From the NCBI RefSeq assembly GCF_019059575.1, contig NW_024882990.1:89340-153339 (forward strand): DNA of 64,000 nucleotides, written 5' to 3'. Within the stretch, counting starts at the first letter, position 1, and each line of letters starts with the position of its first letter. This document shows positions 3,001 to 55,200 of the stretch, one piece after another. This stretch comes from Amphibalanus amphitrite (taxonomy: Eukaryota; Arthropoda; Thecostraca; Balanomorpha; Balanidae). The position numbers were made by a program, and so were the translations under genes. The notes under the pieces are model-generated. The model saw only the letters and a list, made by a program, of their open reading frames with translations. It made no database searches and was not told where the DNA came from.

Positions 3001-6000
3001 CTACCGTGTGTTGTGCTCTACATAGCTGACAAACAACTCCTCGTGCTGTTTTCTTCTTACCATCCCCGCGGCGAGAGTCACTTACCGCACGTTACTGCTG
3101 AGAGGAGGCTGACCACTGTCCGTGGCTTCAACGACCAGGTCAAACCGGCCACTGGCGGTGTCACTGTGTCGCACGGCGCGTGCCACAGTGACCTGACCCG
3201 AGGTCGGGTCAACGACGAACGTAGCGTTGAGGTTACCCTCGATGATTGCGTAGGTGACGGCTGATTGACTATCCTCGTCAGTGTCAGTTGCCTGGGGACA
3301 GGGACGGGTCAGGTCAGTCAGGTCATCCAGGTCAAATCGAGTGTGCCTGGTCGGGTCAGGTCAGGTCAGGCTAGTACAGGCTAGTCAGGTCTTGACCTGA
3401 GTGACAACGGTTGACCTGACTCAGGGAAACGTAGAGATTTGCACTAGAGACTGAGTTACCGGGTCTGATACAGGTAAGAGTGAATTTTATGGTTTGAACG
3501 ATGATTTTGATGTTCGGTGGCATGGTGTTTTGATATTATTTCATTAACCTTTCAACATATTGTTTGATGTAACTTTTTTGTGAGGTTTAAGCTCTTTCGA
3601 TGCAAGTTGCTGTGCTTTATCCTGGTGTTCATCTTTGCAATTTTCTAAATATTAGGAAGGGTGCTGACAGATAATCAGACTGGGGAATAAGCATCCCAAA
3701 AAGCTTAACATCATCAAAGGCGTGGGTTCCGAGAAACTCAAAAGCAATAAGCGCCAAACCCAGTGTCATAACCACACACAGGAGCATCATAAAGATGACC
3801 ATAAGCAGGCCAGAGAGAGAATTCAAAGACGAGAGCGCCTTTCATTCCACGGCCAAAGAAGGGTGTTTGGCTTGTCTCATAATTAAGTCCTTTATTCGAT
3901 AATGAACTTTCTTCAAACTATACTTGCCCTGCACTCTACACAGTGTTGATGCCAAAATATGGAAAAAAGCGGCATATAAGCTATCTTGAGATTATTTTGT
4001 TTCAAAGTCAAGAAATCCCAAGCTTGGAATAGATTCCATCTACAAACAGCTATCATCATCATCATCATCATCAATTGTATTACGTCTAGAGACAAGACAA
4101 GCATGGGCATAACAAACATACACAATGCACACAAGACATACGCCAGAAAACATATGCACAATCATACCTACACCAAAACATAGGCATACCAAAAACAACA
4201 TAACACTATCATATGGGTGGCGCTAATATCATTTGTATTAGTGCCCATGCCTCCCCAGTGTTCTGAGCCAGGAGCCAACTGAGCGAGTCGGATATAAATT
4301 GTAGCGCTTGGAACTATTGGATCAATCAAAATCCAGAAACGCAGAGGCCATCGACCACAATCTCGTTAAAGTTTGGAGACAAAGATGGACTATAATGATC
4401 AGAAAACACCCAAGTACAGATAAATTGAGCATTATGTGCACTTGCACGCAATTCACAGACCATTGCCAATATAGAAATTAAAAAGCATCAGGCACAGCCG
4501 GAGAGACAGGTTACCTTTGTCAGTGAAACACGAGCAGCTAGAAATAAATATGAACGCATATGCACAGTCACTATTAAGCCTGAAACAGACTCTTTCCGCA
4601 GTCAGGAAATCGCATACGAGAGCCTGTTCAAATACATGGAAGCACGCTCGCATCAATCGCACGCACCTCCCGCAAGCGATTGATGCGAGAAGAATTGCAA
4701 TGTATTTGAATAGGCTCTCGCATGCGATTTCCTAAACGCGGAAAGAGTCTGTTTCAGCCTTTAGTTTCTTTCATGCTATTTGCAGTGCACTGATTTCAAT
4801 TTACTACAATAAATATTTAATTACTTTAGTTCACACTCACACATTCGGTGTACCTTCATACACCGAGTCACGTGTGTCTCACCTTGACGTAAAAGTCGGG
4901 GAAGAAGGCATCACTCCCGTCTTCCAGCGTTCTCCTGTACTCCCTCTCGGCGAACTGGGGTCGGTTGTCATTCACGTCCGTCACGTCCACAAATACAGAG
5001 GCCGTGGATGTTCGGTTACCGCCGTCACGTGCCACCACGGTCAGCGCGTAGCTGGGGACAAGGTGTGCGGTCAGCAGAATAAGAGGTTTTCTTAGATGTT
5101 GTTGGTGCACATTTTTGATATTTGTATGGATTTATGTTATGCTGCTTTGATTTATGTTGCAATCTTATTCATTGCCCGCGTAACGGTGTTGAATGTTAAC
5201 CCGCGCCGTGCTGGTGGCCTGAACTTTCCGCCGAGTGCTGGGGGGGGGGGCGTTTTCACGCCCCCCCGTCTAACTCGGCTCCTGGGCCACGTAGCGACAC
5301 GCGGTAAGCGGCAATCGAAAGAGCGTCAAAAATAAGGACGAAAACACTTCGGTCATTTTTTGGGTCAGGTCAAAGGTCAGGTCACCAGAGGTCACCAAAG
5401 GTAAAATGTTGACTATTTCAACATTTTGGAAACTGCCAACGGCTATCTCGGGAACCGATAGAGCTACAGCGCCGCGGAAAAGCGCATTCGATAGCCCTTT
5501 TACAGACCTTTCTGAGTAATGTTCTCAGATTTGACTTAGGTCAACGGTTTAGCCTCCAGAGGGCAAAAACTCCAAAAATAGCCGTTTTTACGAAAAACGT
5601 TTTTTCGTCAATAACTTTTGACTCATAAGCGCCATGACATTACTTTTGCCAGCATCGTGTTCCTCTCGTCGAGACGCGTCGAATGAACTATTTGTTGACC
5701 TTGAAAGGTCATTTTGAAAATTTGACCTCAGGTCAAGGTCATGACCTGACCGAAAAGGGTCATGTTGCATATCAGTCGATCCGTATCGTCGAGCTGAACA
5801 CATCTGACGTGTTTTCACCGCTCTAGCACGTCTCTATCAAAAGTTATAACAAAAAAAAACTGCTGGCGACCGTTCATGACCTGAGATGACCTCAGGGGCA
5901 CACAGAGGGGTCACAGGTGCATTTTTCCTATTCAGTGTGTCATGTTTACCTATGAACCGATGTTTGAGAGCGTTTTGAACGATATTCGTCCAAAAGAGGC

Positions 6001-9000
6001 GCATTTCAATTTTCTCCCATTGACTTATAATGGAGAGGTCGCAAAATTGACCTGACCTTAGGTCACAGATATCAAAAATCCGAGATATACATTTTATACA
6101 TACTGTTACTCATATCAATCGCTGAAAGTTTCAAAGTGATCGTTCAGTCGGTGTAGCTATAGCGAGCCTTTGAACTTTTTCTGAGGTAAGGTCACTTGAC
6201 GTGACCTGGTGACCTGACCTTGAACGGCCTAGGTCTGAAATTTTCACAACATGTGCGGAAATGATGTAGGAACACGTGTACCAAAAACGGCGGCGCTGCG
6301 CGCCGCCGTTTTTGAGATATTCGCAAAAAACCTGAGGGGGGGGGCGTAAAAACGCCCCCCCAGCACGGCGCGGGTTAACAGACTCATCTAAACGTATCAT
6401 TTATTATGTATATTACGCTCATCTTCAATGCTTCGTTCATGGACCCTTGTCACCCAAGGAACCTTGTCATGAAACCTCGTTTTTCGTTTTTCATAATAAA
6501 AATAAAACTAGGAGGAAAGATCAGTTTATCAGCACCGTTTGTTTTCATCTACCTTTGGCATAACCACAAAACGTCAACACTCCAAAACGGCATTACCCCC
6601 AAAACCAGCATTGCTCGCGCACTCATGCTGTCCCAGCTGCTATATGTAACCAGTCCAAAGTTACCCATGTCTGTGTCAAGACTCCCAACCTCACCTCTTC
6701 TGGTCCTCATAATCGAGGCACGGCACGAACGTGCACTGTCCGACGCTCAGCTGCCCCGTGACCTTGTTCACGTGGAACCTCTCTGCTCCGAACCCCCTCA
6801 GGCGGTAGTGCACCGCCCCCAGCTGACCGCTGTCCCGGTCACGTGCCGTGACGTCACCGAGCACGTGACCAGCGGCCGCGTCCTCCGGCACGGAGAAACT
6901 GCCGGAGACAAGACATGGGTCATTGGTTGGTCAGAGAAGCGAATAATCAAAGTCGTGGGAGTTTTGATCATTGACCTGACTCTCCGCCCAGTGTTGGCTG
7001 TTGGAACAATCGGCAGATTCTTTATTTTAGCAAATAGTTGTGCCTGTTGTTGCCACACTGGACAGAGACAAACTGAACACAAATAATAAATAAATCAAAC
7101 GGCAACTAAACCGAACTCGACCCACCTGAACGAATCCCGGTCGAACTCTGGCGCGTTGTCATTAGCATCAGTGACGAGTACGGTGACGGTGGCAGAGACC
7201 TCAGCCTCGCCCTGGGAGGCGACCACTGCAAACACGAACTGACGCTCCGTCTCCTGCTCGTAGTTTAGTCTGTGGACGCCGGGGGAGGGGGACAGGTGGG
7301 TTAGATGAAGTCAGATTAGGTCATACGGGTCAGAGGGGATGGGTAGGTTAGATGAGGTCAGATAAGGTCAAACGGGTCAGGTGGAGTAGGTACTAGGAAG
7401 GTCGGACAGGGTAGAGTGGAATAAATATGTTGCAGGCATGTCATAGAGGGTAGGAAGGTCAAATAAGGTCACATGGATAAAGTGGGGTCACATCAGTCGT
7501 GGACCCGATAAAGTCACATGTGGGATGGGATCACGTAGGGCATGTAAGGTCAAACGTTGGGGTTTTGAGAATGGGGCGATAGAATTAACGGACAAAAGTA
7601 AAAGTGAAAAAATGATGAAGTAATAGATAAAAGTGGAAGATCACAGGCAGGGATAACAAAGTTCAGCAACCACAGGGACTAAGATGAAAGAAGAGCATTC
7701 AGGAATCTGGTTCGCTCGTGAGCAGCAAGTCACAAAAACAAGCGTGGATGTTGGCGGAAAAAGTGAAAGTCTTAGGTGTCAGGCATGTTATACCTGTACC
7801 GTAACACCGAGAGGCTCGCTCAACCATAATTGATTTCGCCATCAGGTTACATGCTTGCCGTGTTGCTCATGTTGCGCCCATAATAAAAAAACACTGGTAT
7901 AGGCTTCGTCGTGGAAACCCTGAAGCCTATCGGTGTGACCCTAATCCCGTGGTGAAAATTGCAAGCAGTCAGATATAATTAGGAGGCAAAAGTGTGATAA
8001 TGAGACGCCGAACCTACCACCATGAGGTCCCTAATAACTTGACCGAAGTCGCCGTGAATGAAATGAACGTTACGTTATGAATATTTAATATTAAAGTTCA
8101 TCTGCCATAGTGGACGGACAGAATATATTTTCATACTGTATATTTTTATCATAAATTTAAAACAAAAAATAATTGTTTAATTATGAGCTGTATGTACGGC
8201 TCTCGCGAGATTAAGCGGTAGGTTTTGCACTTTTACATTTCCGGTTATATCTAATAAACTGATCGATCTACGATGAATCCATTTTACACGATCATGGCCG
8301 GCTTGTTACCCAACAAGTCGATCGCATCTTCAACACTTAAAAGCTTACATTGTACGTGACCCTGCGTTGACCTCTTACCTGGACGAGTCGGTGACCTTGA
8401 TCAGAACGGGGGTGCGTCCGGCGGCCGAGGTGGGAAATATGTCGAACACACCCTCACTGGCCTGGACGTCCCTCAGTCGCAGATCGAACTGAGACCCGGC
8501 GCCCTCGTCCGAGTCCGAGACCAGCATCTCCAGACCAGGGAGAGGGGTGCCGTTCGCTGGGGGTAAGGAGGAGAGAGAGAGAGATAAAGAGTCAGAGATG
8601 TATGAATTGTCGAACAATCATTGGTTAGCCAAAAATACGTTTAGCGATAATTATCAAATGGATAGTGTGTGAAAAAAACTTTGTCATGGTACTTAACCCG
8701 TTAATAAATTGGTGAGATTTATATCAGCAATTTGTCATGATTTCAAATGAGCAAAAATAATTTTCTTTTGGCGTAATGCTACTGTAAAGAAACATAGACG
8801 GTGAACTTTATAAAAAAAAGCGAGCGACCAGCCCAGCCGTGTCAGATCCTCGCGCCGTTATGAGCGGAGCGCTATCTCATCCGCTGCTCACCGGTATCCT
8901 CCGGTATGAAGACGAGGAACTGGTTCTTGTTGAAGACGGGCAGCTGGTCGTCCTCGTCTGTGACCACCACAGTGACGTTGGTGACCACTTTCTCTCCCAC

Positions 9001-9412: not shown

Positions 9413-9478
<66 letters not shown>

Positions 9479-9582: not shown

Positions 9583-12500
9583 GGCCATACCACGTCTATG
9601 ATGCAAGATCATCCTTATTTTTCCTGTTGAGTGCATCCTAGCCTTGTTTCCACAGGCCAAAAGCCACGCGTTCGATCCGGATTCCGCCTGTGCCAGCCGC
9701 ACCGCGCGCCGTCTGGGTTTGTCACTCTCGTGATAAGTCTGACGCCGTCCCCCACGGGTGTACGTTCGTCATCAATAATTCTCTCAGTTCTGGCAAACTC
9801 ATCTGACGTCTGGCACAGGCCCGCTGGGTATTGACAGAGCCTTCGCTCCACTGCGCCTCGAATGTCGACAATTGCGCCGCCCCGAGGGGCTATGTCGCAC
9901 TGTCTGGACAAGTGAGGTGGCGCAAGGAGACAAAGGAGGCGGGGCGTAAAGGTATTCCATTTATTATTTATTTATTTCCATTTTATAAATGCGATTTGGG
10001 AGGTACTGTAGTCGTCCAAGCATTAATTACCATGAGTTTTTGGAAGAGCTGTCATTTTTAATATCACTTTGCTTTCATTAATGCTTCATTGGATTATTGT
10101 CAATGCGATAAATTCGTGGATGTGATAAATGAAAGTACTTTGATTGGATTCGCAGCAGAGTTGTCTGACTATTCATCAGCATATTGCGATTCCTGCAAAA
10201 GGTAATATTGACGCACTCGCCCTCCTTCCTCGGATGCATTGCCTGCCAACATGATTTCGGACTTATTTGTCATTGACGGCAAAAGCAATAACGCAAATCC
10301 AATACTCGTAAAATGAATGTTTAGCTAAAAGATTCACTTTGAAAGTCCAACAATCCGAAAAACGCAGTAGTTACCTTGTGATGTCCAAATGTTTTTCATC
10401 AGAATGTGTTTTAAAATTGTGATAAGGCAATAAAACCGGTCGATCGCCTCAAACCTGTTTGTTAACATTATTGTAAAGTGCAATTATAAAGAGTACACAA
10501 CTTTTCAGAATGAGTGTATGCCGGCATTGTGACTAAATGATAGCATATAGGGCGACGGCTCTTTGCCGAGCGTTTACAAATTGTTTAGTAGGTCGTTAAT
10601 ACGATTTATACCAAGAAGAAACTATTCATACGGTTCTCACCTCGAGGCGAAACTGGTAAAGTCCCACGTTTCGAAGAATATCGGGATTTTCTCTGTCCAG
10701 TGTGGTATTCCCTGTGACCAGTTTTGTACTGTATGCACCATTTGGTCCTGAAAAAAGAAACAAAGTGGCTTCAAATGTAACGCAATTGCCCGGGAAGCCG
10801 CGAAACATGTTAAGAGGTAGGTAAATGCCACATCTCATATCATGGGTGCTCGACGATTATGAAGGTACCTGCATGTTCTTTAGACATTGCAGCATGCGTG
10901 ACCTCAAATCGTCCCCCTAGCCCAGCTATCCGCTTCCTGCACCTGAAAACCATCTTTCCATCTTCTAAGCAATATCGCCTCCGGTATTTGCATCTATCTC
11001 CCCATAACTCTGACCTCTCAACCTTGACCTTTGCCCTCCCGTCGCTGACCTTTGACCTTACCTCTGACCGGGTCCTCTAGCCGGAAGTAGCCGAGGTTGT
11101 CGCCGATAATGGCCAGCTTGAGCTCGCGGGGAATGCCCGTGTCTCCGTCTCTGGCCAAAATATCGAGCACCGGTGTGCCCTGGAGACATGCGGCCGTGAG
11201 TACGGTAAAACACATCGTAATACACTTTTTGCGGTAGCTTTCGACCATTGCACAAAACATTTGTTCACATTCGCCATACAGGTAGCACTACAAATGGGCG
11301 GTTGGTCACAAAGAATCACCATTGTGCAAAAACTATTCAGCGGTCTTCATCTACAACTCGACATTGAGCGAATGGTTCAACATTGGGCAAAACAAATCGT
11401 CAATGGTCGAAACTAATCGTCATACGCCGAGCTGGCTCGCTCAATGCCGAAGTCTGACGAACTGTCGAACTGTTTTGCAGATCGTTCATTTCAGTGTTCA
11501 ATCTGTTATGCCGAATGGCTGAAATGAAACACACAACGCCGGAATAGTTGTGTGCTCAATGCCAATTGTCGGAATGGTTCCTCAAACAACTATGGCCAAT
11601 GATTGAATTTAAATGCAAAAAGGAATAGTATTAGCAGAAGGCGGCAATATGGAATAGCGCATCTTGAACATGATGCCAAACATATACCACGTTGCAAATA
11701 AGCGTTCATGCTTTATGGTAATTGTATGTAATTGATCGTGGGAAATGACAAGGTCTGATGCTAAGGAACCACGTCGTGTCGAAATAACGATTAGATGGCA
11801 AGTCTTATTCCATCTGGTTCAGCTTTTAAATTTCAGCCCTTTTACGGTATCCACGTCGTAAGAAAAAACAAAGTCACTACGTGAAGGTTAAGGTAAACAA
11901 ATCGCCTGGCGAAGGTAACTAAGAAAGAACGGATTCAAAGCGCAAAGGTAAACAATGCACGCTCTTCATTTATTCCCGTGTATCCGAGAGAAATCCTCTC
12001 ACGGGTTTTTAGTTACGTGGCTTATCCGATGCTTATCCGGGCTATCAGCGAAGAAACACGTGTAAAATGGTGCAAGGCGCTTTAATTCCGTTTTCTCTTA
12101 CGTTTGGCAGACTATAGACGAAGCAATTGACACTGGCATAAAATCTGTACCAACAGTCATAACTGAAACATACTTTTTCCGCAGTCAGGAAATCGCATGC
12201 GAGAACCTATTCAAATACCATAAATCTGTTTGTACGTTAATCGTATAAACCTCCGTGCGAGCGGTTGAGGCGAGCGAGAGCTAAACATTCTGGCATGCTA
12301 TTTTCTGACTACCGAAGGACTATTTCGGCCTTCACGGAGCTCTGATCGTGCTTACCGGGGGCGTGTTTTCGGCCACGGTAGCCGAGTAGGGTCCATTGAC
12401 GAACTCTGGAGGTTGGTCCTGCACATCTTCAACAGAAATCACCATCCGCGCGGTGGCTGTAAGTTGAGCTAAAGACGGCGCGGGGGCAGGACAAGTCAGT

Positions 12501-21661: not shown

Positions 21662-22861
21662 TTAACCCGCGCCCTGCTGGGGGGGGGGGGGTGTTTGAAC
21701 ACCCCCCCTTGTGGTTTTTCGCGAATATCTCGAAAACGGCGGCGCGGAGCGCCGCCGTTTTTGGTACACCTTATCATACATCAATTCTACACATGTTGTG
21801 AAAATTTCAGACCAAGGTCATTCAAGGTCAGGTCACCAGGTCACTTGAAGTGACCTCACCTCATAAAAAGTTTCAATGTCCGTCATAGCTACACCGAGTG
21901 ACCGATCGCTTTGAAACTTTCAGCGATTGCTAAGAGCAATAGCATGTACAAAATGTATATCTCAGAATTTTGATATCGATGACCTAAGGTCAGGTCAATT
22001 TTGCGACCTCCCCATTATAAGTCAATGGGAGAAAATTGAAATGCGCCTCTTTTGGACGAAAGACATTATAAACACTCCCAAACACTGAATTACAAGTGGT
22101 TTAGACACACTGAACATGAAAATGGTGTCCGTGACCCCTGTTTATGCCCTGAGGTCATCTTAGGTCACGAATGGTGTCTAACAATTTTTCGCAAATAACT
22201 TTTGATAGGGGCATGCTAGAGCGATGAAAACGCCTTAGATGTGTTCAGCTCGACGATACGGATCGACTGATATGCAACATGACCCTTTCCGGTCAGGTCA
22301 TGACCTTGACCTGAGGTCAAATTTTCAAGTTGACCTTTAAAGGTCAAGTTATGGTTCATTCGATGCGTCTTGACGAGAGGAACACGATGCCGGTAAAAGT
22401 AAGCTCGTACAAGGTCTGGGTCAAAAGTTATTGCAGAAAAACTGTTTCCGAAAAAATCGGCTATTTTTGCAGTTTTTGCCCCCTGCAGGCAAAACCGTTG
22501 ACGTTAGGTCAAATCTGAGAAAATTACTCAGAAAGGGCGTTAATAGGGCTATCGAATGCGCTTTTCCGCGGCGCTGTAGCTCTATTGGTTCCCGAGTTAT
22601 GCGCTGGCTTCTTGGAAATTGTCGACATCCGACCTGGAAATCGGCAAAATTTTGCCTTCAATGACCTCTGGTGACCTGACCTTTGACCTGACCAAAAAAT
22701 TGACCGAAGTGATTTCCTCATTATTTTTGACGCTCTTTCGAACGCCGCCTTCCGCGTATCGCTACGTGGCCCAGGAGCCGAGTTAGAAGGGGGGGTGTTC
22801 AAACACCCCCCCCCCCCAGCAGGGCGTGGAAATCCAGGACCCCCAGCCGGGCGCGGGTTAA
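21662..22861. mobile_element. TTAA element, copy 3 (complete, 1200 bp)
   Basis: TTAA at 21662-21665 and 22858-22861. Ends CCCGCGCCCTGCTGGGGG and CCCAGCAGGGCG; hairpin cores GTGTTTGAACAC (left) and GTGTTCAAACAC (right). Opposite orientation to copy 1: the GGCGGCGCGGAGCGCCGCC hairpin is near the left end and the ACTCGGCTCCTGGGCC region near the right. The duplicated terminal repeat (CCAGCCGGGCGCGGG after CCCAGCAGGGCG) is at the right. DR1 TGACCTTTGACCT at 22677-22689. No ORF. Confidence 0.85.
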
Positions 22862-30588: not shown

Positions 30589-31590
30589 TTAACCCTATTC
30601 CTGGCGGGCTCCACCGGGACAAGAAACTGGCGGGGGGGGGGCCGATTCGGCCCCCCCCCCCTGAGATCTCGAGAACGAAGCAAGATAGCGACAAGCGGTA
30701 AACGGCATCGGATACGCATGGACAAGGTCTACAATTTTTACACAGGTCATTTTCAGGTCAGGTCAAAGATGACGTCACAGGGGTCGAAAAAGTCAAAATG
30801 GCGGCGCTAGATATGGAGAGAGTTTTTCTCGAATAACTTTCGAATTAGTCAAGATAGGAACAAACTAAGGGCATCATCGTGATCCTCTCGTCAATCCGCA
30901 TCGAATGATATATATGTTGACCTCGAAAGGTCAAGGTCAAAGGTTGACCTCAGGTCACGTGACCTCGAGGTCATCATGTATATCATTCGATGCGTCTTGA
31001 CAAGCTGAACACAATGAGACCATCCACGCGTCTGTATCTTGTTCCTGTACGGAGTTATTGGCCAAAAACCTTTGGTGACCTTTGATGACGTCACATGACC
31101 TCACAGCTGCCCAACAGCAAAACAGACCTCAAGGTAGTGAAGGTTGATCGTATATGAAGTCATGTATGGTATATGGGGCCATTCCGACCCGTTTTAGTGG
31201 TAAAAACAGGGAGTTGATTTTTCCCCCATTGACTTATAATGGGGAGGTCGCGAAACTGACCTGACCTTAGGTCACCGATATCAAAATTCCGAGATATACA
31301 AATTGCACATACTGGTACCCTAACTAAAGCCTGAAGAGAAGAAATTGATCGGTCAAAAACTCTAGCTCTGGCGTGATTGCAAACTTTTCTGAGGTAGGGT
31401 CACCAAACCGCCTCTGGTGACCTGACCTGAGGTCAGATCAACTCAAAATTTCAGACATGTTGCGTAGAAGCCTTATAGGAAAAGTCAGAAAATTTGAGCT
31501 TCCTAGCTCAACGCGTTGGGGAGAAATAACCAAAAAACCTCAGGGGGGGGGGGCTCCTGAGGCCCCCCCCCCCGCCAGGAATAGGGTTAA
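30589..31590. mobile_element. TTAA element, copy 4 (complete, 1002 bp, second subfamily)
   Basis: TTAA at 30589-30592 and 31587-31590. Perfect 16-bp ends CCCTATTCCTGGCGGG / CCCGCCAGGAATAGGG. Hairpin cores GGCCGATTCGGCC (left) and GGCTCCTGAGGCC (right). The left end carries the duplicated terminal repeat (CTGGCGGG twice within about 45 bp). Contains CGAGAACGAAGCAAGATAGC and GGTCA arrays. No ORF. Confidence 0.85.
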
Positions 31591-32191: not shown

Positions 32192-32492
32192 GTCTCAACT
32201 GAAATATATTTGGTTATCACTTTAACACATTTTAAAACGGCGCTTTTATGGTGTCCAGCTAGGACCATTTGGAAATCATTTCAAATGGATATCAAATGGT
32301 TCAATGTAAAACCATTCCAGATGGGTTTTTAGTGGTATCAATTGGTTACCTATTTGATATGGTGGCAGTCTGAGTCTGTTCATGTAACGTGCATGTAGCC
32401 TGTGGGTCACCTGCATGTGCTCATACACGGATCTGTAGGTATGTAAAGTGTTGTGTGTGAAAATTTTGGTGATTTTGTATGTATGCATCTCT

Positions 32493-33673
32493 TAACCCTC
32501 GCCCCGTTGGGGGGGGGCCATTTTGGCCCCCCCTGTGGTTTTTCCTGAATAGCAAGAAAACGGCGGCGCGCAGCGCCGCCAAATTTTCAGTACCTTCCCG
32601 GGCATCAATTTGACACCTTCACACCAAATTTCAAGTCTTAGGTCACCTTAGGTCAGGAGTTATTGAGGTCAAACTGAGGTCATGTTCGAGCAAAAATGAG
32701 CAAAAAACATGCAAACTTGAAACGCTCACCAAATCTACAGTTATCAAGCAATTTCAAAGTTCTTTATATGGTCTAGTAGACAAAAAGCGGCGCTACAAAA
32801 CTGCTATCTCGGATTTTCAAAATTTTTGGTTTTTGACAAAAAAAAATCAAAAAATTGATTTTTTTAGAAAAAACTTTGAAAAAATCCAAAAATTTTCCGA
32901 ATTTCGAAAAAAAACCGGAATATATGTGATAGTACCAGCGCTCTTCTATATACATACCAAATTTCAGATCGATATCTCGTTTTTTGGCCAAGTTATAGCG
33001 AAAAAACTGTTCAAAAATGATGACGTCAAATTTTTGAACTCAATTTTTAGCAATTCTAGACCACGTACGGCAAAACAAAGACCACCATTGAACTCCCCGT
33101 GACGAGCTGCATCGATTTGATACCCATTTTATGCAAAAATATTAACTTTGAAATTTGACCTAATTTGACCTGACCTTGACCTGACCTTGACCTGACCTTG
33201 ACCAAAACGTGATCTAAGCTGGCCCCAAAGGCTGCCTGACCCATATAATCGCATTTGTCATGTAAAATTGACCATAAAACATGTATCACACGACACTTTC
33301 ATATTGTGACCCCCCGTGACCTGACCTCTGTGACCTGACCTGGTATCAGTGACCTCAAATAGCAAAATATAGGTTTGAAGAACATTTCCCTATCGATGAT
33401 TTTCAATGAAATACATTTTACTCGATTTTACAACGCATTTCTTGAAGTGCCTGTAAACGGTGAAAATTGGACCTTTGACCTGACCTGTGACGTCATCGGT
33501 TTGACCTAGGTCAATAAAATTGGGTCACAAGGTAGTTCCCCGTTGGGGCTATCCAACGCCGTTTACCGCTTGTCGCTATGTTGCGTGGTTCTCGAGATCT
33601 TAGGGGGGGCCAAAATGCCCCCCCCCCCCAACCGGGCGCGTTGCTCGGCAGAGCCCAACGGGGCGCGGGTTAA
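32493..33673. mobile_element. TTAA element, copy 5 (complete, 1181 bp, second subfamily)
   Basis: TTAA at 32493-32496 and 33670-33673. Ends CCCTCGCCCCGTTGGGG and CCCAACGGGGCGCGGG; hairpin cores GCCATTTTGGC (left) and GCCAAAATGC (right). The right end shows the duplicated terminal repeat (ACCGGGCGCGTTGCTCGG then CCCAACGGGGCGCGGG). Contains CCTGACCTTGACCTGACC arrays at 33160-33200. Oriented opposite to copy 4. It abuts a LINE remnant on its right. Confidence 0.85.
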
Positions 33674-33689: not shown

Positions 33690-34530
33690 GCTGCGGCGGC
33701 TCGGCGAACTATTCCATTCAGTTTGAGGAACCCAGCAGTGAGGTCATGGGCTGTGTCATAAAAGGTACGCTGTGACACGATCCTACGCCAGCGGCAGAAG
33801 GAGAACTGCTGTACTTACATATGACGCAGGCACCAGCAGCTGACAACTGGGTCGAAACAGGTGGAGGCCAGCCACAGAGGTCATGCTCGTATCACTCACT
33901 CTCCCTTGACGTGCGAGAGGACCAAGGCGCTGACCACGGTTGGCAGAAGTTCACAAGGGATGTGGTGACGCGCGTGGGACAGCCCAATGAGGATACCGTT
34001 GCATTTTTGGACGAGGGCCGATACGTGAGCGTCCCAGGTGAGGTGCTTGTCGAAAACCACGCCAAGGTTCCTCACCGTGGGGCCCTCACGGATCGTGTCC
34101 TCACGGAACCGAATTGAGATGGGATCCAGGCTGCGGCAATTTTGGCGCGAGCCAAAGACGATGAGCTCAATTTTGGCTGTGTTAAGTTTTAAGCCGTTGG
34201 TATGAAACCAGGCATCAAAAGGGTCCAGAATTTGTTCTATAGATAGTGGCGATGAGATGAGGGAGGGAATCTTTTTTGCCAGAAAGTGAATTTGGGTATC
34301 ATCAGCGTACTGCACCACGTGCGCCCCAGGGGCGTAGAGGGGGAGGTCATTGGCAAATATTTGGAACAGGAGCGGGCCGAGCGAGGAGCCTTGGAACACG
34401 CCGATAGGATTGGGTAGAGGATCGGAGAGGACTCGGTTTCCTCGCCCGTCAGTTGTGCATACTGATTGGGTATGGCCACGGAGGTAAGAAGAAAACCAGG
34501 TCGGATCGAAAGAATAGGTTTGAAGTTTGG
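33690..34530 (-). pseudogene. LINE (non-LTR) reverse transcriptase remnant
   Basis: The minus strand gives TWFSSYLRGHTQSVCTTDGR, then GVFQGSSLGPLLFQIFANDL and YADDTQIHFLA (catalytic Y-A-D-D), then GLKLNTAKIELIVFGSR and HLTWDAHVSALVQKCN. These are the palm motifs of a CR1/Jockey-like reverse transcriptase. The frame ends at SALVLSHVKGE with a stop at about 33896; TFYDTAHDLTAGFLKLNGIV in another frame at 33680-33775 is probably its C-terminal part. No endonuclease domain; a dead 5'-truncated copy. Confidence 0.8.
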
Positions 34531-35361
34531 ATGTTAGCTTTGGATCAAAGCTATTAAGTTATAAGCTATGAAGTTTGGATAGTAAGTTATAAGTAGAAGT
34601 TTGGATCAATGCTATTACATATGATAGTGAGCGATCCGAGCTTCTCGTTTTTCTCAAAATAATTATTCTAGCTGATAGCTGAAAAATGTCTTGTTATATC
34701 GCACACGTTCGCAAAATATCGAAGCTATGCCTGTGCTTCCACCTTCAACATATTTGGTGCAACAGAAGGACGCAGACGGAATATATAAAAGCAAATAACT
34801 AGTGATGAAGATATATGATCCCAGAGTGTATGCCATAAACAACGCAACGGCCGGATGCGTGACTTCGCGTCGCGGCAAAATTAATTCATTTACCATCATC
34901 CTGCATTATTTGCGGTCTCACCACGCCTGGGAAACCAACCACCCGGGTCCTTTGCAGGCGCGGCAGAAGCGCTCTAATCTGAGCAGAAAAATCCCCGTTT
35001 TCAGACGACTCCCGTATGCCACTTGTCCTTTCTCAGTGGTATCTTGGGTTGCAGCGGGTGACTCCCGCGCCGCTGATGCAGAAGTGTCAGGTGGCGGACA
35101 CATAGTGCGACAGAGCTAGATGGTCTCTGTCGGCAACAGTGATTCGGCATTGTGTTTCGTTCGTTATGAATATCGATGAAAGTCATGCTGAAAATCCCCG
35201 AAAATGTCATATGCGATGTACAAAAGTCCATTGAACCTTAAATCACCATTTCCGAAATTCTCACACCTGGAAATGAATGACACGGCAATGTCGATCAGGG
35301 GCCGACGCACGGTCCTATATGTTCGCAGCTGGCAAAACACCAACGCGGGCGAGGGTTAACC

Positions 35362-36506
35362 TTAACCCGCGCCGGGCCGTTGCTCCGCGACTTCCGCGCC
35401 GGGACGGGGGGGGGGGGTACCTGAACACCCCCCTTCTAACTCGGCTCCTGGGCCACGTAGCGACACGCAGTAAGCGGCATTCGAAAGAACGGCCAAAATC
35501 AGGACGAAAACACTTCAGTCATTTTTTAGGTCAGGTCCAAAGGTCAGGTGACCAGAGGTCACCAAATGTAAAATGTTGGCTATTTCAACATTTTGGAATC
35601 TGCCAATGACTAACTCGGGAACCGATAGAGCTACAGCGCCGCAGAAAAGCGTATTCGATAGCTCTTTTAACGGTCTTTCGCTAATATGTCCTTAGATTTG
35701 ACCTCAGGTCAACGGTTTTGCCTCCAGAGGGCAAAAACTCCAAACATAGCCGTTTTTACGAAAAGTGTTTTTCGGCAATAACTTTTGGTTCAAAAGTGAC
35801 ACGACATTTATTTTGCTAGCATCGTGTTCCTCTCGTCGAGGCACGTCGAATGAACTATAATTTGACCTTAAAAAGTCAACTTGAAAATTTGACCTCCGGT
35901 CAAGGTCATGACCTGACCGGAGAAGGTCATGTTGCATATCAGTCGATCCGCATCGTCGAGCCGAACACATCTAAGGTGTTTTCATCGCTCTAGCATGCCT
36001 CTATCAGAAGTTATTAGCGAAAACTGTTAAAAACTATTCGTGACCTGAGATGACCTTTGGGGACATAACGAGAGGTCACAGTTGCCATTTTTCGGTTCAG
36101 TGTTTTGATTTTACCTGCATCTCAATGTTTGAGTGTGTCTAGAATGGCGTTCGTGCAAAACAGACGCTTTTCAATTTTCTCCCATTGACTTATAATGGAG
36201 AGGCCGCAAAATTGACCTGACCTTAGGTCACCGGTATCAAAATTCCGAGGTAAACATTTTATAGATACTGGTACTCTTATCAATCGCTGAAAGTTTCAAG
36301 GCAATCGTTCAGTCGGTGTAGCTAGGACGAGCATTCTTATTTTTTCTGAAGTGTGGTCACTTGGCGTGACCTGGTGACCTGACCTTGAGCGACCTGGGTC
36401 TGACATTTTTAGAACATGTGCGAAAAAGATGCCGCCGTTTTTAAGATATCTGCGAAAAACCGCAGGGGGTGGGGTGTTCAAACACCCCCGGCCCGGCGCG
36501 GGTTAA
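35362..36506. mobile_element. TTAA element, copy 6 (complete, 1145 bp)
   Basis: TTAA at 35362-35365 and 36503-36506. Ends CCCGCGCCGGGCCG / GGCCCGGCGCGGG. Hairpins GGGGGTACCTGAACACCCCC (left) and GGGGTGTTCAAACACCCC (right). Left end carries a second terminal-repeat copy (CCGCGCCGGGACGGGG). Same subfamily and orientation as copy 1 (ACTCGGCTCCTGGGCCACGT near the left). It starts two bases after the right end of the 5.2-kb interval. Confidence 0.85.
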
Positions 36507-46755: not shown

Positions 46756-46879
46756 TAGTCCTCCGGGCCGGATAGTCTTTTCGGTTTCAAAATTTGTACC
46801 TTGTTAATCGGACAGACATTGATATTCTTGTTTGATACAGTCCACTTTTACCCACTTGTTAAAATCCGTTTAGTTCAAC

Positions 46880-49399
46880 ATGGATGATTTATTGAGCACA
46901 AGAACGAGGCTTCGTTCAAAGGCAACCAAACAGTGTAACGACCTCAGGTCATGCCGGGAGGGGGATCAAAAGGCACTTGATGTGGATCAGCTGGCTCTCA
47001 AGCTCCATCACTTGGAGAAGCTGCAGCACGAGCTTCAGCAGGTCCAGGACCAGCTCGACAAGCTTGGTCAGCCTGACGATTCCAGTCACAGCCAAAACAT
47101 GGAGGATGAGATGTTCCTCGGCTCCAGGCTACTCACCCGGCTTGAGAAAGCTGGTGACACTGTTCAAAGGGTCGACTCCCAAAACCCGACAGGAAATGCA
47201 GACCTCAAAGCATCAGTCGCAGTCAAGATTCCCATTTATCATGGCGACGTGATGAAATGGTCCGAGTTTTGGGAACTCTTCACAATTTCCGTTCACGACA
47301 ACCCAGTTTACGCTGACGTGCAAAGGTTTGTCGTTCTTAAGTCGCATTTGGCCGGCGCGGCGCTGCGCACAATCCAAGGGATTCCGGTGTCGGGTGAAGG
47401 CTACGCTGAAGCCGTAGCAGTCCTCAAAGAGCGCTTTGACCACAGCGAGGTGCGGCGAGAGCTTCTGATGCGCGAGCTCTTGAGCATGCCCTCTGTCCGC
47501 CACAATGACCTACGAGGCATGCGAACCTTGGTTGATCACCTGTCTTCTCACACGCGCGCTCTAAACACCCTCGGTGTGCCCGCCGAGAGCTTCTCGAGCC
47601 TCCTCCTACCAGTCGTGAAAGACAAAATTCCGGAAGACTGGCGGCTGGAATGGGCTCGGCTGGAGAGCGCGGACTTTGACGTTTTCCTTAAATTTCTCAA
47701 TCGAGAGTTACGGATCCGCGAGGCAGCCAAGGGAGTTTCTGCGTCTGTCGCAAACGCAGAAGCACCGCCTTCGGCGCCGTCTGTCACCAGCATTATGACG
47801 GCACGGCTTGAGCCTCGGAGGGAGCGGTCACAGCCATCTCAAAGGCCAAGGAAGACGGCTTGTAGCGCGTGTGGACAAGGTCATCATTCGCTTGCCCAGT
47901 GTGTGACATTTCGTGGCATGACTGTACAGAGCAGATGGTCACTCGCGAGAAACTCGAAGGTATGTTTCCGCTGTCTCCGTCCTGGTCATCGAGCCCGTGA
48001 TTGCAAAGAGGGATCATGTGTGGAGTGCAGCAGGCCCCATCACGTCCTGCTGCACCATTCGGGACCCTCGTCAGGGGGTCACTCGGCGGTCCCAACGTCC
48101 AAACTGTCGCCGGATGCGGCCAGCTTCTCGACGGCACAGCCCCCTCAAGAGGCGGGTATGAGTGCCGCAGAAGTAGATGCCCAGCGACAGTGCCATCGTC
48201 GTTTCAACGCCCAGAGAGCTGACGGAATCCGAAGCTTCTTCCAGACGGCTCTGGTTGAGGCTGTGGGCCCGAATGGTCGGCGCCGGGCCCGTGTCTTGCT
48301 GGACGGAGGCTCCGACTCCTCCTATATCCGTGGCGCTCTGGCAGAAGAACTTGGGCTACCTGTTGTCGGCTCGGGAACCTTCTCCTGCATTGGCTTCCAG
48401 GAGAAAACTGAACAGGCACGCCAATATCGCAAAGTCCGAGTCGAGCTTCAGAGCCGTTTTGACGGCAGCTCTGTGCACCTGGACATGTGGAGCACAGGTC
48501 GTCTATGCTCACCCCTTCCGGCCACATCACCTCCCCAGATGCCCTCCCGATTGGAGATGGCGGACGACTTTGGGGGAGGTGAGATCGATCTCCTAATCGG
48601 CGTTGATAGTATATATCACGTCGTGTTGTGGGAGCAAGTGGATCTCGGTGAGGGGCTTCGAGCTGTTGAGACAATCTTTGGATATGTTCTGCATGGGAAG
48701 CAGAGCGGAGTCCTGTCACACGATCAGCCACGTCATCAGACGTTCCACTGTCGCCAAGTGGAAGCGATGTGGGACTTGGACACGATTGGGATCAGTGAGC
48801 ATGAGGTGGTCGACTCAAACCACAGGCTCTACCCCAAGCCTACATGGAATGAAGCTGAGCAGCGCTATGAGATGGGTTTAGTATGGCGCTCCGAGGATAG
48901 GCCCGTCTCCAACAGAGGTCCTACGCTGGCTCGAACGCTTCGAATGTCGGATCGCCTCAGCAAAGAGAAAGCTGTCATGTCCAACACGCACGGCGATGGC
49001 GTGCCGATGAATGCAGCTGTCGATCTCTTTGATCTCAAGTATGAACAATCACCAATGGAGCTTTCCGAGTCGGACGCTGTGGGCTCGTGCACGGTGGGGA
49101 GCCGTTCTGCTGCTCAAGCGCCTGATCTGCCGGATGTCTCTGCCGAGACGAGGCGGAATCTTGAGCAGGGCCAGGAGCTGTTGCATAGGCCGATTGCCTT
49201 TGAAGCTTTCTGGTCCCCCCACCAAAGGGCACTCCAATGCCTGCAGTCAGACGTGCATGAGAAAGTCTTTGAAGTGGTCAACCCAAATGACCAAAGGAGC
49301 AGAGCATGCTCATGGCTCTTGTCGGAAACACGTCAGAGGTCTTGCCGGATTCCGTTTGGGCAGACCGGACGTCCCCCAGAACCGATGCGTCGGGGGTGA
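46880..49399 (+). CDS. Gag plus aspartic protease polyprotein of BEL/Pao-like element (839 aa)
   Basis: Forms the particle and processes it in the intact family. Residues 1-90: a helical, coiled-coil-like start (LEKLQHELQQVQDQLDKLG). About 110-260: a DUF1759-type gag domain with YHGDVMKWSEFWELF and VLKERFDHSEVRRELLMREL. Zinc knuckles: CSACGQGHHSLAQC at about 327, CFRCLRPGHRARDC at about 362, then CVECSRPHHVLLHH. Protease-like region from about 460 with LLDGGSDSS, Gly replacing the second residue of the usual D-S/T-G. About 650-700 (VWRSEDRPVSNRGPTLARTL) matches the linker that precedes RT in Pao polyproteins. After that the sequence is unrelated and the frame stops where RT should begin. ATG at 46880 is the first in frame. 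Confidence 0.88.
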   Translation: MDDLLSTRTRLRSKATKQCNDLRSCREGDQKALDVDQLALKLHHLEKLQHELQQVQDQLDKLGQPDDSSHSQNMEDEMFLGSRLLTRLEKAGDTVQRVDSQNPTGNADLKASVAVKIPIYHGDVMKWSEFWELFTISVHDNPVYADVQRFVVLKSHLAGAALRTIQGIPVSGEGYAEAVAVLKERFDHSEVRRELLMRELLSMPSVRHNDLRGMRTLVDHLSSHTRALNTLGVPAESFSSLLLPVVKDKIPEDWRLEWARLESADFDVFLKFLNRELRIREAAKGVSASVANAEAPPSAPSVTSIMTARLEPRRERSQPSQRPRKTACSACGQGHHSLAQCVTFRGMTVQSRWSLARNSKVCFRCLRPGHRARDCKEGSCVECSRPHHVLLHHSGPSSGGHSAVPTSKLSPDAASFSTAQPPQEAGMSAAEVDAQRQCHRRFNAQRADGIRSFFQTALVEAVGPNGRRRARVLLDGGSDSSYIRGALAEELGLPVVGSGTFSCIGFQEKTEQARQYRKVRVELQSRFDGSSVHLDMWSTGRLCSPLPATSPPQMPSRLEMADDFGGGEIDLLIGVDSIYHVVLWEQVDLGEGLRAVETIFGYVLHGKQSGVLSHDQPRHQTFHCRQVEAMWDLDTIGISEHEVVDSNHRLYPKPTWNEAEQRYEMGLVWRSEDRPVSNRGPTLARTLRMSDRLSKEKAVMSNTHGDGVPMNAAVDLFDLKYEQSPMELSESDAVGSCTVGSRSAAQAPDLPDVSAETRRNLEQGQELLHRPIAFEAFWSPHQRALQCLQSDVHEKVFEVVNPNDQRSRACSWLLSETRQRSCRIPFGQTGRPPEPMRRG

Positions 49400-49537: not shown

Positions 49538-49675
49538 GGTTCTCATGAGCGTGATCGCCCATGACGTGGAAAGCTTGTCGGCTTCCACGCGAGCCTTTCG
49601 TTCTTAGGGTTCTCATTGAGCGTGTCCGCTCGTGACGTGGCAAGTCTGTTGGCTTCCACGCGAACCATTGGTCCT
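49538..49675. repeat. Two-copy ~70-bp tandem repeat inside the LTR element
   Basis: GGTTCTCATGAGCGTG ... GGCTTCCACGCGAGCC (from 49538) recurs as GGTTCTCATTGAGCGTG ... GGCTTCCACGCGAACC (from 49608). Non-coding spacer. Confidence 0.75.
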
Positions 49676-50939: not shown

Positions 50940-51118
50940 CCGTTCCCAATCCCGTGCCGTTATGCGGTGAATCAATGGTGATTTCCGTTTCTCGTGACGA
51001 CTACACGGTAGTTCTACACATATGTATTTCAGGAATACTTGCGACCAATGATAGACGATGCTGAGATAAAATACTCGATTCATTTTATTTTGTTTAACTC
51101 GTGCTTTTTGACTGTTAT

Positions 51119-51174
51119 ATGTATGTGTGCGTGCGTGCGTGCGTGCGCGTGCGTGTGTGGGTGCGTGCGCGCGA
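51119..51174. repeat. (GTGC)n microsatellite
   Basis: TGTGTGCGTGCGTGCGTGCG tract with variants. Confidence 0.85.
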
Positions 51175-51867
51175 AATGACAGTGGTGCTGCATAACTTGA
51201 GAATGCAGTCAATGCGGAAGATCAAATTTTAATAAAAGTTCAGGCATACCAAATTTCATCTCTGGACCTGTAATACTTCTAGAGGCATCGCTAAAAAAAC
51301 AGGGATTGCACAAAATCCCGACTACTAGGCTCAGTGTACTGCCATTTAATGCATACTCATATTCATATTTTAATTAGACTTTCTGAATAACTGCGATTAA
51401 AAATTGATGCATTATTCAATACACTTGCTAATTTGTAATACTTGTAAGACGTAAATCAGCACACTGTAATGCATTATGAAGGCAAACCGTGAGTGAGTGA
51501 GCGCCCCAAATAATTAAGTCCTGCAATCTGCATCGTATTTCCATTCAAACCGTGCACTAGCAACGCTTTTCCGGAATAAATTTTGGAAGGATCGTGGCAC
51601 CTACAAGGCGCAATTTACATTAGCGGCTAGTATTTTCACGTTTATTATGCCTTTCATAATTGTTCCATCATTATGTCCAATGCCACTGAAAAATGATTAT
51701 AAATTGAAATATAAGTCACCCGTCTGTATAGGCATGACGATTTGAATGCAAATGGAGAGGTAAACATTTAGTACAATCTCCTTAAAGTCACGCTAATCAC
51801 ACACAGGCAGCTCAAACAAACGAAACCCAATGAAAATGAGTGTTACAAGTCGGTTAACGACTTCACT

Positions 51868-51880
51868 AAATATATTTAAA
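51868..51880 (+). promoter_or_regulatory. TATA-box candidate for lectin 3
   Basis: AAATATATTTAAA lies about 45 bp before the start codon at 51921, in range for a TSS near 51900. Weak on its own in AT-rich sequence. Confidence 0.35.
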
Positions 51881-51920
51881 CAGCGAAGTGGAGAAGGAGG
51901 CTTCATTATCACTTGCAGCC

Positions 51921-52215
51921 ATGGTCCGGCCGGGAGCGGTACTGCTGCTGCTTCTGGTGACTTCAGCGGCCGCGGTCCGGTACCGCTGGCTGGACCCGGT
52001 GTCCCTGCACGGTCCGGCTGTGCAGACCGTCTCAGCAGTCTCAGCAGTCGACTGCGGTCGCCGCTGTGACGCGCAGACCCCTCAGGAGTGTAGCGGCTTC
52101 ATGTACGGCCCAGAGGACGGCATGTGCCGCCTGTTCTCTGGCGACTGCCGCGGTCCGGCTGTCAACAAGTCAAAACAGACTAGCAACCACTATATGGCTA
52201 GAAACCAATGTCCAG
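51921..52215 (+). CDS. Lectin 3, exon 1 (signal peptide and PAN-like module)
   Basis: 98 codons plus one base, ending NHYMARNQCP-G at a GTAAGT donor. Six Cys within about 60 residues. Confidence 0.9.
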
Positions 52216-55200
52216 GTAAGTCATCGTCTAGCCAAGAGCTATTCTTAGATACGACCAGTGGCGTATTTAGAAAATCACGAGGGGGTTCAAGAACCTTATC
52301 AAAAACCTAAAAAATATACTCACGCCGACCAACAAGAGGGGCGGGCGCTAAAGGTTGAGAGGATGGCGATCAACACGAGAGCGCCAATGGCCCAATAGGT
52401 AGGAGGGCCTTGATCAACATTAACCCACGCGGGGCTGGGGGTAAATTTTACCCCCACTCGCGAATTTTTGCAATATCTCAAAAACGGCGGCGCGCAGCGC
52501 CGCCAAACTTCCAGTACCTTTTCTCACATCAATTGGACACGTTTCCTGAAAATTTGAGCGAAATCCTTCTGAAATTTTTTGAGAAAATGGCGTTTTAGTG
52601 ACGTCATGTTCGCCATTTTCGCCTCAAAAATGGCAAAAATTCCAACGCCGCTAACATCTTCATTTTTAAGGGAATCAAGACGTAACAAAAAGGTAATACG
52701 TGATTTTACTTTGTCTATCAAATTGCTATCTCGGTTTTTTGAATTTTTTTATTTTGGCCCATTTTTTTCAAAAAACTGACTTTTTTGGGAAAATAATTAT
52801 AAAATCCAAAATTTTGCGTGTATCGGAAAAACCGGAATATTTGTCAGAGAAGTGGTCCATGTGCACCTACCTACATACCAATTTTTAGAAGAATCGGTTA
52901 AAAATGTGGGAGTTATTCAAAATTTTATGACGTAACGACAAACAATTTTTTGAAAAATGAATTTTTTGGAATTTCTAGACCTCGTACGGAAACAAAATAG
53001 CACCATTCGATTCGCCGTGAAAAATTGCATCAAATAGACACCTTTTTAGACCTTAACAACCAGCTTCAAAATTTGACCTCACTTGACCTGACCTTGACCT
53101 GAGCTCGACCTGAAATTCATCCAGATGTGGTCCATATCACCTATTGAGTGTGCCTATTGAATTATATGAATAAAATGACCTATAAAACATGTGTCGCACA
53201 TGCCCTTTTCTATATTTTCTTTTTGGTGACCTGACCTGACCTGACCTTGAGCTTGACCTCTGAATGATGTTGTATGCAACGAATATTGTCTTGGTAGCCT
53301 AAGAACACGTTTTGCACAATCAGTCTCAGTCCATGACTCCATTCTTCGGCAACTACGGTGCAAGGCCGATACTGAAGAAACTTGCAATTTGTACCCTTGA
53401 CCTGACCTTGACCTTGACCTCAAACTTTAAATTAAGTACATGTTTTTAGTTGCTCGTGATGAGATCTTTCGATCGGCGTTTGAATTTTCCAAATCGGATC
53501 ATTAGCTCGGGAGATAACAGGGGGGGGGGGGTAAAATTTACCCCCTCCCACCAGCCCCGCGCGTTCGGCTGGAGACCCCAGCCCCGCGCGGGTTAAACAG
53601 GAGGGCGCCAAAAAGAAGGACACCGAGCAAAAGGAGGGCACCATTGATTACGAGGGTGGTGATCAACAAAGAGGAGACAAAAAAAAACAAGGGCAACAAA
53701 AAAAAAGAATAAAAAACAAGAGTGCGCCAAACGATGGGGGGGGGGGGACATCAACAGGAGATCGCCAGTTGGTAGAAATGTGATTATTAGCCCGCGCCCT
53801 GCTGGAGGGAGGGGAAGGGGGTTGAGCAGCCCCTGCGTTTTTTTTTTTCGCGAATAGCCGCCGTTTTAGGCACACCTCATCATACTTTTTCCGCAAATGC
53901 TGTGAAAATGTCAGACCAAGGTCACCCAAGTTCAGGTCACTGGGCCACCTCACATGATCTTACCTAAAAAGTTTCAACTCCTTCCATTGCTACACCGAGT
54001 GACCGATCACTTTAAAACTTTCAGCAATTGACAAGCTCAGCAATGCGTATAATTTTTTTTACATAGGAATTTCGATATCGGTGACCTATGGTCAGGTCAA
54101 TTTTGCGATCTCTCCATTATAGGTCAAAAGGAGAAAATTGAAAATAAATTGAGAGACGCCTCTTGTTAAGGTTAGCCTTCGACTTTCCATGAATAATTCA
54201 CGAACCGTTAAGACTAGCAACATGAAACGTGGCATACCCTCTTCTACATCAAGCTCTCATCCTCCCATGAAATTTCCTTGTGGAGCAAAGACCGTTTTAA
54301 TATATAACTTATTCGACCTCCACATCATGTCATTAAATGATCTTTTGTCTATTGGCAATGGAATACACCACCAGATAATCAGATCATCGCCCTAATTCCC
54401 ATTGAATATGTCAGCATTATGAAAAAAGTGTCTGCTAGTGAAGGGTTTCCAGATATCCACATTTCGCTAGATGAGCTCAAATGCGCAATCAAGATCTAAG
54501 CTGTCATTTTAACACTTATATTGTATAATGAATAATGTATATGCAGCGATGAAGGGCCTTTTTGTCTTTTGACCTTTCGTATTACCTATGCTTCATCGAC
54601 ATCGACCGACTGGGGAGATGGTCTGTTGTTTTTTTTTCACATGAAAAAAGGGGTGCGGAATTTCGATAGCAATTGCCGAATAAATATCAAACCAGCATAG
54701 TGTTGATCAAAACTGTTTCTTACTTTAATGAAATGCTTCCCGCAACAACTTCAGAGAAAATTTTATATTGTTTCAGGGACCATGTCCAACCGCTGCGCCT
54801 GCCCGGCCGGCTTCAGCCGCTGTGCCGGCCGCTGTCTGAAGCGACTGGACCTGGCAGTCGCCTACACTGAAGCGGAGAGCCAGTGCAACGCGCTAGGCGC
54901 CCACCTGGCCGTGCCCCGCTCTGACGAGGAGAACCGATGCGCCATAATTGCCGCTGGCGGCACCACTGTCTGGCTCGGCCTCACCGACGTCGTCACCGAG
55001 GGCCAGTTCGTCGGCGCCGACGGCTGCGGCACCGTGCCTTCCACCGGTCCCCTCTGGGGAACCGGACAACCCAACAACGCAAACGGAAACCAGCCTTACG
55101 TTGTCCTGGGGCTGATGGAAGCTGGAGTGTGGTATTCTGAGTGGAACGACTACTGGGGCGATGAATCAATCAACCCTCTGTGTCAGCTAGCGGTCTGTTA

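Follow-up and report, generated by a model that had tools for sequence, protein, structure and literature searches.

Non-autonomous piggyBac-type elements with one single and one double end in the barnacle Amphibalanus amphitrite

The DNA analysed here is a 64,000-nucleotide stretch of the Amphibalanus amphitrite genome (NCBI RefSeq assembly GCF_019059575.1, contig NW_024882990.1, positions 89,340 to 153,339 of the forward strand), referred to below as the window; the assembly that contains it comprises 807.6 Mb in 2,644 contigs. Six complete TTAA-flanked elements, E1 to E6, were found in the window, each with one single end (A) and one double end (B), in which a second copy of the terminal core is placed ahead of a palindrome. 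These are very probably non-autonomous members of the piggyBac clade proper, with the A end corresponding to the left end (LE) and the B end to the right end (RE) of Trichoplusia ni (T. ni) piggyBac. The double end is the LE/RE layout of T. ni piggyBac and not a new kind of terminus. What is new to us is the recurrence of this geometry, with re-spelled cores, across many families of one genome, and the presence of AGGTCA arrays in these elements.

Structure of the six elements

The sequence TTAACCC was present at 12 of the 12 tips of E1 to E6 (CCC..GGG termini). From the tip inwards, an end consists of TTAA, CCC, a family-specific core some 12 bp long and then a palindrome, in which a short centre separates a G-run from a C-run. 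The elements are 1.0-1.2 kb in length and are located at 5196..6378 (E1; minus strand, A end right and B end left), 21662..22861 (E2; plus strand, A left and B right, approximately 82% identical to E1), 30589..31590 (E3; minus strand, with the diverged core TATTCCTGGCGG), 32492..33673 (E4; plus strand), 35362..36506 (E5; minus strand) and 52420..53596 (E6; plus strand). All six had been recognised in an earlier note on this DNA, in which the start of the fourth copy required correction by one base (32492, not 32493). The two partial copies that it reported were also recovered, both as A-side parts: P1 (18119..18808, minus strand; tip TGAACCC), from an E1/E2-like element, and P2 (53787..54164, plus strand; tip TTAGCCC). 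A lone E4-like tip of about 22 bp, without the palindrome (35338..35359, minus strand), abuts E5, and the B tip of E5 is two bases away from this lone element end at 35353-35359.

The second core was found at an offset of 27 bp in five of the elements and of 26 bp in E3. When core and shifted core were compared over the six double ends together, 57 of 72 positions matched at offset 27, against at most 35 of 72 at any other offset between 18 and 39. The same summed comparison of the six single ends never exceeded 31 of 72, so that the earlier description of a second terminal repeat at one end only holds for all six complete copies. The individual second cores are at 5230..5241 (E1, plus strand; 9/12 matches), 22816..22827 (E2, minus; 10/12), 30622..30633 (E3, plus; 7/12), 33628..33639 (E4, minus; 11/12), 35396..35407 (E5, plus; 10/12) and 53551..53562 (E6, minus; 12/12). 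The significance of each was assessed with 5000 composition shuffles per end. Shuffles that did equally well numbered 0 for E6, 11 for E4, 74 for E2 and 109 for E5, and in these four the second core is clear. In a swap control, the A core fitted the second core of its own element best in five of the six elements.

Because the second core is placed before it, the palindrome is deeper at the B end: in E1 to E6 its centre is 54-57.5 bp inward of the tip at the double ends and 23-31.5 bp inward at the single ends. The G/C palindromes of the B and A ends, respectively, are at 5240..5267 and 6336-6361 in E1, 22789..22817 and 21679-21708 in E2, 30632..30661 and 31543-31573 in E3, 33603..33629 and 32509-32533 in E4, 35406..35433 (imperfect) and 36471-36489 in E5, and 53520..53545 and 52437-52455 in E6. 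The double end had been described as lying beside one of two named segments, and this is the case in E1, E2 and E5 (ACTCGGCTCC) and in E3 and E4 (TCTCGAGA); the double end of E6 adjoins TATCTCCCGAG, which is merely similar to these two. The GGCGGCG hairpin that had been placed near the other end is close to the single end in E1, E2, E4 and E6, is truncated in E5 and is absent from E3.

As had been proposed, no coding sequence was found in the elements. The longest frame has 162 aa, and the eight longest frames were all below the Pfam cut-off, the best result among them being one match at half its cut-off. The centre of E1, E2, E3 and E5 (about element position 515-780) is a degenerate inverted repeat of approximately 265 bp, recognised from opposite-strand profile matches.

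Recurrence of the end geometry in the genome

A survey of 360,649 loaded bases of the host genome yielded 104 TTAACCC ends with a G/C palindrome. The 60 tips of 30 query-selected E1 copies and two near-duplicates were left out, and the 42 non-redundant ends that were kept consisted of 21 single ends (palindrome centre 22-30) and 21 double ends (centre 51-60). A second core, defined as a match of at least 8/12 at offset 26-28 with offsets 24-30 tested, was present in 18 of the 21 double ends (16 of them at exactly 27) versus 2 of the 21 single ends. For the remaining three double ends the best tested offset was still 26 or 28, at 6-7/12. There were 18 distinct tip-core strings, several of them alike, among the 21 double ends, three of which belong to the autonomous family AUT described below. 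All 14 complete elements that were delimited had one single and one double end, the ends being paired by eye; ends with a partner outside the fetched stretch stayed unpaired.

Six other piggyBac families (12 ends) gave a match of at most 5/12 at offset 27, and their best match elsewhere was 8/12 at offset 37. A pattern search of viral contigs left the hairpin unmatched and returned four matches to a piggyBac terminal inverted repeat and one to a subterminal word, none of which had such ends.

Genome copies of E1 and insertion at TTAA

From 5,858 candidates of a first look with E1, 40 were scored, each of them complete or almost complete and with an identity of 98-100%. These copies are the best-ranked ones and so represent the youngest copies only. 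TTAA was present on both sides of each of the 30 top-ranked copies retrieved, including the E1 copy of the window. The copies are approximately 99.9% identical to their majority, from which 35 of 35,464 compared bases deviate. The flanks of the copies differ, save for L022 and L031, which have common flanks and could represent the same insertion. These flanks, together with the tips of E1 to E6, agree with the earlier assignment of TTAA targets and 5' CCC to the piggyBac type. Neither of the two contrary patterns that the earlier note had named, flanks other than TTAA and a second repeat at random positions, was found in the sequences examined, the position being fixed in 18 of 21 double ends.

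One E1 copy (L030) lies within an E6-like element, and E6 of the window provides a homologous empty site for it. The unoccupied homologous stretches for L030 and for a second copy, L007 (76-77% identity), retain a single TTAA. At L055, a piggyBac of another family is nested in an E4-like element, and the three unoccupied relatives read TTAA, TGAA and TCAA, which makes this nested insertion a weak witness to TTAA targeting. Abutting elements that share one TTAA were also observed (AUT_C527/NA_C527 at L077/L068; L009:293-296 and 3373-3376; L034:110-113; L020:2686; L029:1501-1504). These pairs look as if one element had used the TTAA at the end of its neighbour as its own target.

Autonomous relatives

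The transposase domain PF13843 had at least 116 matches in the genome, all above the cut-off, and the loci examined were 30 that the search returned and 10 further ones that were fetched. The genome is rich in piggyBac families, with many open frames and with sets of the same score and length (604-aa copies L049-L059), and some of these families are apparently young.

In one family, here called AUT (L066, L068 and L070, with L069 assigned by protein), the double end is located 3' of the transposase. Two of its copies were extended to full elements, 3,975 and 3,971 bp long, in which the single end is 5' of the transposase. The 3,971-bp copy (C527) contains an intact open reading frame of 646 aa from the ATG, in which the C-terminal cysteine-rich domain (CRD) is read through; in the C44 copy the frame is changed in this last domain. 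The 646-aa protein matched PF13843 at 234.9 bits. Its residues 89-638 were aligned to T. ni piggyBac (structure 6x67), including the catalytic core and the CRD, with an E value of 2e-78 and about 30% protein identity, and its match to the piggyBat transposase was weaker (E 3e-30). The catalytic DDD triad was scored as present in the alignment to 6x67. In a tree of 21 transposase rows with a midpoint root, the AUT family, L063, L072 and T. ni piggyBac were split from 14 other genome sequences with a support of 100/100.

A second transposase family, C33, has a 666-aa open frame and a CRD that, among the loaded transposases, matches this clade only. At its double end, 10/12 positions matched at offset 27 and no more than 5/12 at the other offsets from 18 to 39, and the palindrome centre is at 53.5. 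The tip cores are TAGAACGCCTAG / TCGCACGACCAG in AUT and GCGCCCTGGTGT in C33, compared with GCGCCGTGCTGG and others in E1 to E6. The search for an autonomous partner with the same ends, suggested in the earlier note, was successful in part: AUT is a relative with the same kind of ends and with PF13843, but its exact cores differ and the partner of E1 to E6 was not found. Judged from sequence, the features of the piggyBac superfamily (TTAA at both ends, CCC tips, a relative with PF13843, the DDD triad and the CRD) are present. Grouping with the piggyBac clade proper (T. ni type) applies to the autonomous relative, as E1 to E6 code for no protein.

AGGTCA arrays

The hexamer AGGTCA/TGACCT was counted 112 times in E1 to E6 (6,859 hexamer positions) and 11 times in the two partial copies, compared with 75 times in the 56,019 positions of the window outside the elements; six other piggyBac families have 0-4 of these hexamers apiece. 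The arrays extend over 5367..6220 in E1 (20 sites), 21815..22689 in E2 (21 sites), 30744..31435 in E3 (18 sites), 32640..33513 in E4 (20 sites), 35528..36385 in E5 (19 sites) and 53074..53420 in E6 (14 sites, in the B half only). Markov simulation of the elements gave a mean of 14.3 sites (maximum 35) at order 2 and of 63.8 (maximum 85) at order 3.

The position of the first site is similar among elements. In 13 of 13 elements examined, the AGGTCA site closest to the B tip starts 156-177 bp in, and at the A tip a site is found at 111-163 bp in 11 of 13; E6 and L009b have TGACGTCA at 176-180 instead. As the 13 elements include close relatives (E1/E2/E5/L020b; E4 and the L055 host; AUT and its derivative), these are not 13 independent cases. 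In the double end of C33 the first AGGTCA is at 171 bp. The terminal alignments of the 13 elements contain conserved GGTCA columns between variable stretches. The sequence TGACGTCA, a CRE-type palindrome, is possibly interchangeable with AGGTCA. It occurs repeatedly in the AUT tandem units and was also noted for E3, E4 and E6.

The reading that we favour is that AGGTCA is a binding site required for transposition. It is possible, if on balance doubtful, that the arrays are instead a functionless by-product of mutation, generated by tandem duplication of a 166-187 bp unit together with TGACC-type slippage. In the 5' region of AUT (first 1.1 kb), a tandem array of about 187 bp is still recognisable in degraded form. 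It contains AGGTCA sites and TATGACGTCATA, and its masked units have a score of 166, where shuffles reached 26 at most. The spacing of the sites therefore probably began as tandem duplication, and the point left to explain is the retention of the sites, not their spacing. A by-product would also be in keeping with the commonest site configuration, overlapping direct repeats (spacing -1, 22 pairs), with the 63.8 of 112 sites already yielded by the order-3 model, and with a density outside the elements (75 per 56 kb) that likewise exceeds the 0.5 per kb expected if all four bases were used equally. The control within E1 copies (2 changes in 3,690 site bases versus 25 in 23,159 other bases) had no power to count against it.

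The retention of sites between elements speaks against a mutational by-product. Between E1 and E2, the 117 aligned site bases are 99.1% identical, compared with 81.9% elsewhere, and 19 of 20 sites are retained versus 283 of 673 other CpG-free hexamers (Fisher p 1.2e-6). Retention was 16/20 between E1 and E5 (p 1.5e-4), 16/21 between E2 and E5 (p 7.8e-6), 12/20 between E1 and E3 (8-9% for other hexamers) and 9/20 between E4 and E6 (9%). Between E1/E2/E3/E5 and E4/E6 it was lower, at 2 to 6 of 18-21 sites versus 1-6% of other hexamers, in alignments that are poor and that the motif itself may anchor. The narrow distance from the B tip, in elements several of which are closely related, also argues against a by-product. 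Decay of the sites in partial copies, considered as a mark of relaxed constraint, was not observed (6/9 sites retained in P1).

The best clustering periods of the sites were 162-169 bp in E1 to E6 and 188 bp in the 5' part of AUT. Compared with a cluster-placement null, the periods were supported for E1, E2, E3 and E5, and not for E4 (171/2000) or E6 (1354/2000); the masked segments of E1, E3, E4 and E6 were barely above shuffles for tandem similarity. Nucleosome phasing was dropped as the cause of the spacing, the tandem array of AUT making duplication the simpler origin.

AGGTCA is the classical nuclear-receptor half-site, and a nuclear receptor of the host might bind the arrays, which would then be cargo with a regulatory use for the host and no part in transposition. 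The everted arrangement TGACCT-N(0-1)-AGGTCA, with 10 cases inside the elements and 0 outside, would suit this. Cargo is not expected on every copy, so the presence of sites in all 13 elements counts against it, as do their narrow distance from the B tip and their mostly inward orientation (88 of 112 in E1 to E6), and we consider it distinctly unlikely.

Smaller AGGTCA clusters were seen outside the elements (window 1653-1787, 3136-3411, 7317-7546 and 10898-11052). No element end was recognised around such clusters on reading the window stretch from 1.5 to 3.6 kb.

Interpretation of the double end

The left/right asymmetry of the ends is real. The earlier note had considered an asymmetric double terminus unusual, which is not borne out, as T. 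ni piggyBac has the same arrangement: its LE35 and RE63 ends are asymmetric, and bp 34-63 of the RE repeat bp 7-35 of the LE almost exactly (PMC7351741), which gives an offset of 27.

A second core could be an accident of one ancestral duplication that was inherited without a role in transposition. The families seem to be of common ancestry, an inherited geometry requires no function, and the second cores are weak in E1 and E3, with E1 failing the swap control. Several observations make this explanation very unlikely. The two copies of the core tend to co-vary, as the own-best fit in five of the six window elements indicates; the spacing is constant at 26-28 over 18 distinct (often similar) tip cores in 21 double ends; and the same offset is found in T. 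ni piggyBac, the transposase of which is about 30% identical to that of AUT. Moreover, randomising the inner repeat of T. ni piggyBac, or inserting 5 bp, reduced transposition by approximately half (PMC7351741). Membership of the Kolobok superfamily, which is known from many animal groups (PMC9587614) and likewise inserts at TTAA, is ruled out by its 5'-RR..YY-3' termini (PMC9587614, PMC6004289), against CCC at 12 of 12 tips here, and by the piggyBac PF13843 transposase of a relative with the same kind of ends.

Several points weigh against assigning E1 to E6 to the piggyBac clade proper with ends of the LE/RE kind. Individually, the second cores of E1 (557 shuffles as good; weak) and of E3 (2355, not significant; offset 26, 7/12) are unconvincing, so that the case for them rests on shared position, and the A core of E1 matches the second cores of other elements as well as its own. 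The tip cores of AUT and C33 are unlike those of E1 to E6, so neither is established as their partner, and no transposase responsible for moving the E1 family was found among the fetched loci. C33 is known from its B end only, no ends were recognised for L063 and L072, and an end of this kind was absent from the 1.6 kb retrieved 3' of the C72 transposase. The root of the tree is a midpoint, and T. ni piggyBac was represented in it by residues 52-593 only, with a composition flagged as unlike the rest. The palindrome equals that of piggyBac in place, not in sequence. Accounts of the piggyBac end that carries the 31-bp spacer conflict, with the 3' end given by one and the 5' end by another (PMC1783651), and polarity therefore cannot serve as a test. 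The case of piggyBat demonstrates that ends can be arranged quite differently (PMC11707139). Finally, the support consists of sequence data.

On the reading preferred here, a transposase supplied in trans would cut and paste the element at TTAA, with hairpin-protected excision. By analogy with the solved piggyBac transpososome, a transposase dimer would grip the tip cores and paired CRDs would grip a palindrome, and at the B end a second dimer might load on the inner core and the palindrome. This extra dimer would allow an A plus B pair to make an efficient synapse, and asymmetry of the ends would then be needed in these families also. The AGGTCA sites, about 110-180 bp from both tips, may bind a protein needed for transposition, which could be the transposase itself or a protein of the host, for instance a nuclear receptor. 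A more specific proposal, which we put forward tentatively and consider rather unlikely, is that of three-module ends (tip core, palindrome and AGGTCA array) with a required cofactor, either a nuclear receptor of the host or some other AGGTCA-binding protein of the germline. If this were true, a host transcription factor would license transposition, and synapsis would follow a single code with two layers, the second core and the arrays, which families re-spell with the geometry unchanged.

The families constitute a natural mutagenesis series, in which cores and palindromes vary and the second core stays 26-28 bp inward; spacing and copy number are held constant more than sequence. Through the autonomous families, one of which has an intact copy, the two-dimer model can be tested on new pairs of transposase and ends, and such pairs might find use as orthogonal piggyBac tools. 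The AGGTCA arrays add a third feature that is conserved and unexplained.

Other content of the window

A long open frame at 57809-59590 (minus strand) contains a Penelope-like reverse transcriptase with a GIY-YIG domain. Further domains were an open reading frame with DUF1759 and a zinc knuckle (46874-49399, plus), an RVT_1 fragment (33896-34558, minus) and a C-type lectin domain (54707-55219, plus). Rfam and tRNA scans of the window gave no match.

Comparison with known systems

In the open-licence papers that were searched, neither these elements, nor the recurrence of their geometry across families, nor AGGTCA arrays in piggyBac elements were found described. Kolobok and KolobokP share the TTAA target and differ in their RR..YY termini and in their transposase (PMC9587614, PMC6004289). 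The coral CMITEs are, like E1 to E6, non-coding, with TTAA, CC[C/T]T tips and terminal inverted repeats that diverge around a conserved internal stretch; they differ in a length of about 100 bp, and within the available part of their description no double end is reported and TGACC and GGTCA are absent from the main text (PMC2872659).

The piggyBat element of Myotis lucifugus (PDB 9c0f) belongs to the same superfamily and also has a core followed by a palindrome, repeated at one end (PMC11707139). Its arrangement is different, with three units at 44-bp spacing on the LE and an RE without such a palindrome (PMC11707139), and its transposase is more distant from that of AUT than is the T. ni enzyme.

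The closest likeness is to T. ni piggyBac (PDB 6x67, 6x68), which has the same TTAA, the same LE with core and palindrome, and the same RE with a second core 27 bp inward and a palindrome, and to which the AUT transposase aligns over catalytic core and CRD. Its LE palindrome is centred near bp 25, and the palindromic 19-bp repeat is bound by a CRD dimer in the cryo-EM structure (PMC7351741). Its unequal ends, termed 'puzzling' and 'enigmatic', are functionally distinct: LE35/LE35 gave neither excision nor integration and RE63/RE63 gave excision without integration, and a hyperactive enzyme relaxed both restrictions (PMC7351741). The AGGTCA arrays are listed here as a feature observed in the barnacle elements. 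The barnacle elements differ from it in the sequences of core and palindrome, the palindromes being of the G-run/C-run type, in that E1 to E6 are non-autonomous, and in that many families with distinct cores are present in one genome.

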